Source: Phycisphaerales bacterium (GTDB taxonomy: Bacteria; Planctomycetota; Phycisphaerae; Phycisphaerales; SM1A02). From it: a stretch of 34,333 nucleotides of DNA. How positions within the stretch are numbered: the stretch's first letter is position 1; each line of letters starts with the position of its first letter. Made by a program: the position numbers and the translations under genes. Of the stretch, positions 32,911 through 34,333 are shown piece after piece. Below the pieces are notes generated by a model. It did no database searches. It was not told where the DNA came from and saw only the letters and a program-made list of their open reading frames with translations. The DNA lies in the NCBI GenBank assembly GCA_009691725.1, contig SIAP01000024.1, positions 1-34,333 of the forward strand, read 5' to 3'.

Positions 32911-32954
32911 TTCTGCGCAAGTCGAATCGTCAAGAGCAATCTTGACTGAACCGG

Positions 32955-32998
32955 TCGCCGTCCTTGGTCTCCCCGAGGACGGCGATCTTTTCCTTTTT
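32955..32998 (+). terminator. Intrinsic terminator of the PEP-CTERM-like gene
   Basis: TCGCCGTCCT (32955-32964) pairs perfectly with AGGACGGCGA (32976-32985), followed by TCTTTTCCTTTTT. A ten-base GC-rich stem with a T-rich tail 45 bases after the stop codon is a textbook plus-strand terminator. Confidence 0.85.
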
Positions 32999-33282: not shown

Positions 33283-33310
33283 TTGACTTCGCACATTCTC
33301 GTGCTAGATT
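33283..33310 (+). promoter_or_regulatory. Promoter of an orphan transcription unit
   Basis: TTGACT (33283-33288), 16 bases, TAGATT (33305-33310), with TGC directly before the -10 as in extended -10 promoters. GCAC and GTGC within the spacer (33291-33304) form a short inverted repeat that might be an operator. No gene starts downstream before the terminator at 33499. Confidence 0.5.
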
Positions 33311-33316
33311 CAACAA

Positions 33317-33530
33317 GTCGATTCGATTTTCAAGCAATGGACGCTTGGGTGCGAGTCGACCTTGGAGAGGAACTGGAGAAAAGGAAATCACAAGAGAATT
33401 TTTTGTCCGCTGGATGTTTGCAATGACCGCAACATTCGACGGCACAGGGCGAGTCGCTCGCACCTGCGTCTGATTTTTCTTCCCATCCATCCCGCTTCAA
33501 CCCCCCCCGCAAGGGGGGGTTGTTGTTTTT
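33317..33530 (+). ncRNA. Candidate small RNA of about 210 bases
   Basis: Predicted from a promoter (33283-33310) and a strong terminator (33499-33529) with no convincing gene between. The 5' end folds: GTCGATTCG (33317-33325) pairs with CGAGTCGAC (33352-33360) through nine pairs including one G-U, and encloses a second stem CAAGC/GCTTG (33331-33335, 33343-33347). A purine-rich single-stranded stretch with several GGA units follows (33364-33390), then a hairpin GCGAG-TCG-CTCGC (33449-33461). The octamer GCGAGTCG occurs twice (33351 and 33449). A 19-codon frame at 33414-33473 (starting MFAMTATFDG) lacks a ribosome site but cannot be excluded as a small protein. No known RNA family recognised. 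Confidence 0.45.
33499..33529 (+). terminator. Strong intrinsic terminator ending the orphan unit
   Basis: AACCCCCCC (33499-33507) pairs with GGGGGGGTT (33513-33521) around the loop CGCAA, followed by GTTGTTTTT. The stem is perfect and the T-run is on the plus strand only. There is no accepted plus-strand gene between the previous terminator (32955-32998) and this one, which implies a separate transcript. Confidence 0.85.
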
Positions 33531-33580: not shown

Positions 33581-34150
33581 TCAGTTCGATGGCGCATCTG
33601 CGAGAGTTGTGTATCGCAGGTATTGCAAACCGACCGACGCCCCTGCCATCATCCCCCTCTGCGCCGTGATATAGATGGCGACGCCATTGCTATACGGGGC
33701 AGTCGCCGAAGTGCCGCTCTCGCCTCCGACCGCCGTGCCACCTGCGCTTCCACTGAGCACATTGGTCTTGAACTCATCAAAGACTGCCTTCGTTTGAAAG
33801 ACGATCAACATTTACATTTCTTGACCGCCAAGTTGGAGCCCAACGCTCGGGTTGGAGGTCGATGCCCAACCTTCCTGTTCCCCAGCGGGGGTGTAAACCA
33901 CCGCTCGGCCGAATTCGCTCCCACCAAAAATCACCCCCCACTTTCCGATACCCGGGAACACCGCGTATCCAGCGCTTTCGGCGAGTTGCTTGTCGAGTCC
34001 CGGCGTTTCCTTGATGAACAGCGCCCGACTATCCGCAGCTTCCCTGATGAATGACTGGCGATCCTGCACGCTCGGTGCGGTATTGCAAGAAGTGATGAAA
34101 GCAGCGGCGGCAATGAAACACGATGCAATGCAGGTGGTGAGTTTCGTCAT
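33581..34150 (-). pseudogene. SYLF-domain (Ysc84/DUF500) lipoprotein gene interrupted by an in-frame stop
   Basis: Read through, this is a 188-residue lipoprotein: MTKLTTCIASCFIAAAAFITSC with lipobox ITSC, then a SYLF domain (SAGYAVFPGIGKWGVIFGG, GRAVVYTPAGE, SNPSVGLQLGGQE, then MLIVFQTKAVFDEF, GVAIYITAQRGMMAGASVGLQYLRYT). SYLF domains bind phosphoinositides or other lipids in eukaryotes; bacterial members are exported proteins of unclear role. Codon 113 is TAA (33814-33812), exactly between GGQEM and MLIVFQ, in the same frame and without loss of alignment length. The next codon is ATG, so the second half could be started afresh. It may be a recent nonsense mutation, a sequencing or assembly error, or a gene now made as two chains. 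It lies 23 bases after glyS. Confidence 0.8.
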
Positions 34151-34173
34151 ACGCGCAAGGTTATCGATTCGCG

Positions 34174-34333
34174 TCATACCTCTGCGACTTGACTGTCGAG
34201 CCATGCTGCCACCGCGTCGATCGACATCCGTTCTTGTTGCTGCGTATCGCGGTGACGGATCGTCACTGCCTGGGAGGTGAGCGTGTCGGTGTCGATGGTG
34301 ATGCAGAATGGTGTGCCCGCCTCGTCCATGCGC
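34174..34333 (-). CDS. glyS: Glycyl-tRNA synthetase, C-terminal end (5' part outside the window)
   Basis: Only the last 53 or so codons are visible, ending at TGA 34176-34174. The sequence RMDEAGTPFCITIDTDTL followed by VTIRHRDTQQQERM matches the C-terminal anticodon-binding domain of the single-chain (alpha-2, eukaryote-like) glycyl-tRNA synthetase, where EIGTPFxxTVDxDTL and TVRxRDTxxQ are conserved. The bacterial alpha-beta (GlyQ/GlyS) type lacks this. It charges tRNA-Gly. The SYLF lipoprotein gene follows 23 bases downstream on the same strand. Confidence 0.85.
   Translation of the reverse strand, partial: RMDEAGTPFCITIDTDTLTSQAVTIRHRDTQQQERMSIDAVAAWLDSQVAEV

Follow-up and report, generated by a model that had tools for sequence, protein, structure and literature searches.

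Several C/U-rich small RNAs (sRNAs), namely RsaE, LhrC, AbcR and the alpha-r8 RNAs, act on Shine-Dalgarno regions, and the usual seed of such sRNAs is a conserved C/U-rich linker ahead of the terminator. RNAs of the CsrB/RsmZ type sequester the protein CsrA. Pairs of RNAs that act on each other have also been reported: the sponge CrfA and the SisA-D (alpha-r8) sRNAs form such a pair in Caulobacter (PMC12559287), and the CU-rich CjNC140 and the GA-rich CjNC110 bind each other in Campylobacter jejuni, which lacks Hfq (PMC10470494). The list of regulatory RNAs from planctomycetes and their relatives is short; a table in one review counts 8 distinct sRNAs across the PVC group as a whole (PMC9029176). 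The RNA described here comes from this group and is accompanied by an RNA partner that can be named.

The window analyzed is contig C39 of the 2.07 Mb genome G000, a stretch of 34,333 nt, and our genus sample comprised 19 genomes of uncultured planctomycetes. The unit of interest lies on the plus strand and opens with a promoter at 33283-33310, in which a -35 box (TTGACT) and a TG-extended -10 box (TAGATT) are separated by 16 bases. The 5' hairpin (33317-33360) consists of an outer stem of nine pairs, one of them G-U, at 33317-33325/33352-33360 and an inner stem of seven pairs at 33329-33335/33343-33349. It is followed by a purine element, GGAGAGGAACTGGAGAAAAGGA (33364-33385; consensus GGAGAGGNNGAGNNGAAAAGGG), a variable middle with predicted hairpins (33386-33473; mean z -2.8 over 12 homologues), and a conserved C/U-rich segment, TTTTTCTTCCCATCCATCCC (33474-33493), which the alignment and its complementarity mark as the proposed pairing segment. 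The unit ends in an intrinsic terminator (33498-33530), whose stem at 33498-33522 is followed by T-rich DNA up to 33530. The predicted transcript would extend from 33316 to 33530 (about 214 bases), in agreement with the independent transcript of about 210 bases, encoding no convincing protein, that a sequence-only reading of this DNA had proposed. The extended -10 promoter, the nine-pair stem enclosing a second stem, the purine-rich stretch and the terminator of that reading were all present where it had placed them. It had, however, passed over the most conserved element of the RNA (33474-33493), and its description of the GGA-rich stretch as exposed did not hold, since folding predicts the stretch to be partly paired.

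The gene upstream has a terminator of its own at 32953-32987. The window contained six terminator-like sites against 1.9 expected, and four of the six were versions of the terminator at 33498-33530. A 221-base stretch spanning the unit folded at -86.2 kcal/mol (z -4.6), and none of 200 shuffled sequences folded as well; the terminator contributes to this value. When the C/U segment and the terminator were removed, z was -2.85, and the 5' region alone gave -4.1.

A covariance search with a model of the RNA (R1) in 201 genomes revealed full-length copies in 12 of the 19 genomes of the genus; G003 has a 3' half only. The blastn search of 61 genomes gave E values below 1e-4 in 12 of the 19, counting the window's own genome and the 3' half in G003, and a weaker match in G008 (E 0.004). 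The RNA was found by neither blastn nor covariance search in G005, G006, G009, G013, G014 and G017, whose completeness is 70-95%. Outside the genus, where the covariance search ran with strict filters that lose weak matches, 11 of 182 genomes matched at E below 0.01 with only 17.7-29.9 bits. Seven of these matches were confined to the 3' end of the model and four reached further at E 0.004-0.01, and we accepted none as a homologue. Among the 201 genomes searched, we could find this putative RNA family only in the one genus.

Alignment of the 12 full-length homologues showed that GAAAAGG is invariant and that UUUYCUUCCCAUCCAUCCYGC is nearly so. The best-kept parts are thus the purine element and, above all, UUUYCUUCCCAUCCAUCC just ahead of the terminator, not the 5' stem. 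In all 12 homologues a TTG[AC] box stands at the same position, 16 bases ahead of the -10 box; the -10 boxes, picked by eye, read TATGTT in eight and TAGATT, TACTCT, TACGTT and TACTTT in one each. The 5' region, including 33317-33325/33352-33360, where the earlier reading had asked for compensatory changes, could not be aligned and its sequence is not conserved, but a hairpin at this place is mostly kept (z at or below -2.1 in 10 of 12; -0.96 in G007 and -0.52 in G010). Both sides had changed in 5 of the 22 pairs of the consensus structure, all five within the terminator stem. GGA varies within the purine element, where G018 and G004 carry GGGCGAGG and GCGTGAGG in place of GGAGAGG.

The sequence downstream of the sRNA gene varies between genome groups, as judged by eye. 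In the window, a lipoprotein-like gene lies on the minus strand at 33581-34204; we take it to be SYLF/YSC84-like, and its first part had no Pfam match. One in-frame stop interrupts it at 33812-33814. The same frame is open in G018 and G004, where the downstream gene is presumably SYLF-like. The stop may reflect an assembly error or a pseudogene. In G003, where the 5' half is missing, the C/U segment and the terminator (L017, about 1284-1347) come directly after a gene's stop codon; the end of this gene presumably resembles that of a PEP-CTERM protein, judging from its motif. A near-match to the C/U pattern was seen at G011:C39.

No reading frame of 12 or more codons was common to the 12 full-length homologues, and a 16-codon frame was shared only by the closely similar G001, G011, G012 and G016. 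The 19-codon frame at 33414, which the earlier reading had singled out, occurs in the window RNA and is absent from the other 11 homologues. The Rfam comparison that it had recommended returned nothing in the window at the gathering score (Rfam 15), and a further Rfam search gave a best E of 0.21, on the minus strand. Among the papers retrieved on planctomycete small RNAs, none describes this RNA in its title or the opening of its abstract. A separate small RNA is supported because the promoter, the terminator and two sequence elements are conserved in 12 of 19 congeners, no frame is shared and no Rfam family applies. The proposal of a new, independently made small RNA is thus well supported by sequence, and the unit appears free-standing, with its own promoter and intrinsic terminator kept in relatives, as would be expected of a trans-acting base-pairing sRNA.

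To find RNAs that could pair with the C/U segment, we searched 19 genomes, of which 12 belong to the genus, for its complement, GGGATGGATGGGAAGG, allowing two mismatches or fewer, and scanned 400 genomes, the whole genus sample of 19 among them, for exact 14-base matches. Besides the sRNA loci, exact GGGATGGATGGGAAGG was present at one purine-rich locus each in G002, G005, G008, G010 and G014, and the remaining partners carry near versions of it. Pattern searches and alignment identified this partner as a GGA-rich, RNA-like unit of about 320-450 bases in 16 genus genomes and then in G013, that is, in 17 of 19; genus-wide pattern searches did not find it in G003, which has only the 3' half of the sRNA, or in G006. 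The unit has a conserved TTGC box upstream, a conserved 5' end reading AAGAGGYGCCCCG, internal purine repeats (for example GGAGGRTAGGAAAWGG), a conserved TTGGGGAT and a terminator. In G000 it lies on the minus strand of contig C31 at about 34795-35197 (L098; other loci include L099 and L142), and it contains two imperfect complement sites at C31:34878-34949, just ahead of a tRNA-Ile gene. ARAGORN placed a tRNA-Ile gene after the partner in G000 and G004, and by eye one also follows in G014 and G018. Tandem 10-base units, TTGGTGAACC / TTGGTGATCA, were noticed by eye between the partner's terminator and tRNA-Ile at G000:C31.

The partner is not a tmRNA by ARAGORN, which on seven partner loci reported only the neighboring tRNA-Ile, in two of them. 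An Rfam search (E up to 1) of five partner loci and two loci of the efp-upstream RNA described below returned only a tRNA above the gathering score; the sub-threshold matches were to ES003 (outside the partner), SorX and suhB. The partner's 5' motif matched ten genomes outside the genus, and inspection of five of these and of G006 revealed no purine-rich RNA behind the motif. The partner and the efp-upstream RNA are unlisted RNA families.

The complementarity between the C/U segment and the partner exceeds chance. We tested 16 genomes, 12 with their own segment and four with the consensus. The duplex was better than the mean of 500 shuffled C/U segments per genome in 16 of 16 (z -3.1 to -7.0, matched by no more than 5 of the 500), and comparison with dinucleotide-shuffled partners gave z -2.8 to -6.8, where 3 of 200 at most did as well. 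We also compared it with 120 natural C/U-rich 21-mers, drawn from 147 of 271 loci and the window after tracts overlapping the two small RNAs had been removed; a first pool was dropped because it still held complements of the partner (1 to 32 of 195 tracts as good). No natural tract did as well in 10 of 16 genomes, and one did in four. The values for G017 (4 of 120) and G015 (10 of 120), whose partner lacks the site, were unexceptional. In the window's own genome, one of those four and with imperfect sites, 1 of 120 natural tracts pairs better. The sRNA thus carries, as trans-acting sRNAs do, a conserved segment with a complement in a separate RNA, G015 and G017 being unexceptional against natural tracts. 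Within the sRNA, the predicted unpaired probability of the segment ranges from 0.29 to 0.86 and is 0.29 in the window RNA.

Some observations count against a pairing interpretation or leave it unaided. Complementarity between purine and pyrimidine tracts arises easily. The partner is present in all 12 genomes that have the full sRNA and in 5 of the 7 that lack it, and this co-presence is not significant (one-sided Fisher about 0.12). In G013, which is 95% complete, the partner has a site that fits the consensus segment (z -5.3) and the small RNA was not found. Because the C/U segment hardly varies, no true co-variation between sRNA and partner can be demonstrated.

We lean, with modest confidence, toward the view that 33316-33530 encodes a trans-acting sRNA of a new family whose conserved partner is the purine-rich RNA, with pairing through the C/U segment and, likely, mutual titration. 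The window RNA is probably a pairing regulator, because its most conserved part looks made for a second, purine-rich RNA. The C/U segment beside the terminator would pair over about 18-22 bases with the partner's purine-rich region, and the two RNAs would most likely titrate each other, either because the purine-rich RNA soaks up the small RNA as a sponge or because the small RNA antagonizes the purine-rich one. Since Hfq was not found, any helper would have to be CsrA or some other protein, if there is one at all. We infer from these comparisons that the unit is transcribed and that the duplex forms in cells, and our statements on the direction of control, mRNA targets and the helper protein are to be taken in the same way. 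This pairing runs opposite to the functional guess of the sequence-only reading, since it is the C/U stretch that is best conserved, which makes the window RNA the C/U partner of a purine-rich RNA. That guess, in which the purine stretch could bind CsrA-type proteins or pair with C/U-rich messages, is only partly supported: the stretch gave a weak-to-moderate match (z -1.2 to -3.5) to the one C/U-rich RNA tried, the linker of the efp-upstream RNA.

This second small RNA-like unit lies on the plus strand upstream of efp (L143 931-1057, corresponding to G000:C41:4430-4556). Its layout is that of the window RNA, with a 5' hairpin, a variable stem, a near-invariant C/U linker (CCCUUUUCCCUCCCUCC), a terminator and often a TATGTT-type -10 box, and the two RNAs look like one class by layout. 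Unlike the window RNA, however, it is shorter, more conserved and more widespread, its model matching 98 of 301 genomes, and its linker has a different order; a 3' block of some 50 bases, nearly invariant, occurs in 17 of the 19 genus genomes. The fit of its linker to the purine-rich partner was less specific (z +0.05 to -3.9). The unit could instead be an efp leader with an attenuator. One of two loci scanned matched suhB/alpha-r8 (RF00519) with 22.8 bits, below the gathering score of 41. A candidate at G016:C65 proved on retrieval not to be an efp-upstream RNA.

Among other explanations, a C/U-rich sRNA that mainly targets Shine-Dalgarno regions of mRNAs, with the purine-rich RNA as one of many targets or a decoy, deserves serious attention but is in our view rather less than probable. 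The position of the linker ahead of the terminator, the usual seed of such sRNAs, and the second, family-wide RNA of the same layout upstream of efp would both fit this explanation. The exact 16-base complements besides the sRNA loci, however, fall in the partner locus (sites with one or two mismatches were inspected in part), and the leaders of three csrA genes, considered as targets, gave no strong pairing in any case (-11.6 to -12.7 kcal/mol). It is very unlikely that a long-range helix between the RNA's own purine element and its C/U segment, 6S-like or protein-sequestering, accounts for the conservation and that the complementarity in trans is a by-product. The minimum-energy folds of several homologues and the consensus fold do partly pair the two elements, but no pair of that helix has changed on both sides, and in none of the 12 homologues did the segment match its own element better than shuffled C/U segments did; usually it matched worse (z +0.1 to +2.0). 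These values rule out the own purine element as the target; the match is therefore to the partner in trans, and a self-clamp is an unlikely reason for the conservation of the C/U segment. That the unit is a chance promoter-to-terminator stretch without a functional RNA is scarcely credible: the promoter on the window alone was not above chance (one found against 0.8 expected in shuffles), but ordered elements are conserved in 12 genomes, and the DNA beyond them, compared by eye, is not the same from one group of genomes to another.

CsrA offers a further explanation, in which the partner sequesters CsrA as CsrB and RsmZ do and the window RNA either covers its GGA sites as an anti-sponge or binds CsrA itself. 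A CsrA family match was present in 18 of 19 genomes, all but G017, and the three sequences inspected resemble CsrA. The partner has 14-31 GGA motifs per genome, at least one of them in a predicted hairpin loop in 14 of 16, and GGA motifs lie inside the pairing site. On the other hand, the GGA count may reflect composition, the partners of G018 and G014 have no GGA within predicted hairpin loops, and GGA is not invariant in the window RNA's purine element. Several conserved GGA motifs, typically in hairpin loops, as in CsrB/RsmZ-type RNAs, were not found in the window RNA, and no hairpin with a GGA loop was common to the 12 homologue folds by eye. The partner may have a CsrB-like role, but we consider this explanation as a whole unlikely. 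An elaborate version, which we think improbable, is a three-RNA circuit without detectable Hfq, in which the GGA-repeat RNA would sequester CsrA and bind both C/U-linker sRNAs, and the window RNA, as an antisense switch, would cover GGA sites and release CsrA. Hfq (PF17209) was detected in none of the 19 genus genomes, and the same profile matched 5 of 14 control genomes; an Hfq-dependent sRNA would need a genome that encodes Hfq, and by this profile none of the 19 does.

We know of no sequence relation between the window RNA and CjNC140 or CjNC110. The proposed titration of a C/U-linker sRNA by a purine-rich RNA shares with CsrB/RsmZ a GGA-rich partner with some GGA in predicted hairpin loops and a CsrA gene in the genome; it differs in that the partner has no Rfam match (five loci) and the window RNA does not itself consist of GGA repeats. 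As with CrfA and SisA-D, two separately encoded RNAs are involved, one of which would mask the conserved pairing segment of the other (PMC12559287). Caulobacter, however, has one sponge, four sibling sRNAs and Hfq (PMC12559287), whereas here a single sRNA faces a larger RNA of purine repeats and Hfq gave no match, and the lack of an Rfam match at the gathering score sets the window RNA apart from SisA-D (alpha-r8). The Campylobacter pair is likewise composed of a CU-rich and a GA-rich RNA in a bacterium without Hfq (PMC10470494); the contact described there is a predicted six-base one between stem-loops (PMC10470494), in contrast to a predicted 18-22 bases or so beside the terminator here. If our interpretation is true, sRNA-sRNA titration would extend to a group without detectable Hfq, and a genus-restricted sRNA would have become attached to another fast-changing, purine-rich RNA. 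None of the resources searched contained the window RNA, its partner or this setting, and the mechanism is of a known kind, since sponge pairs are known from CrfA/SisA-D and from the GA-rich and CU-rich sRNAs of Campylobacter.
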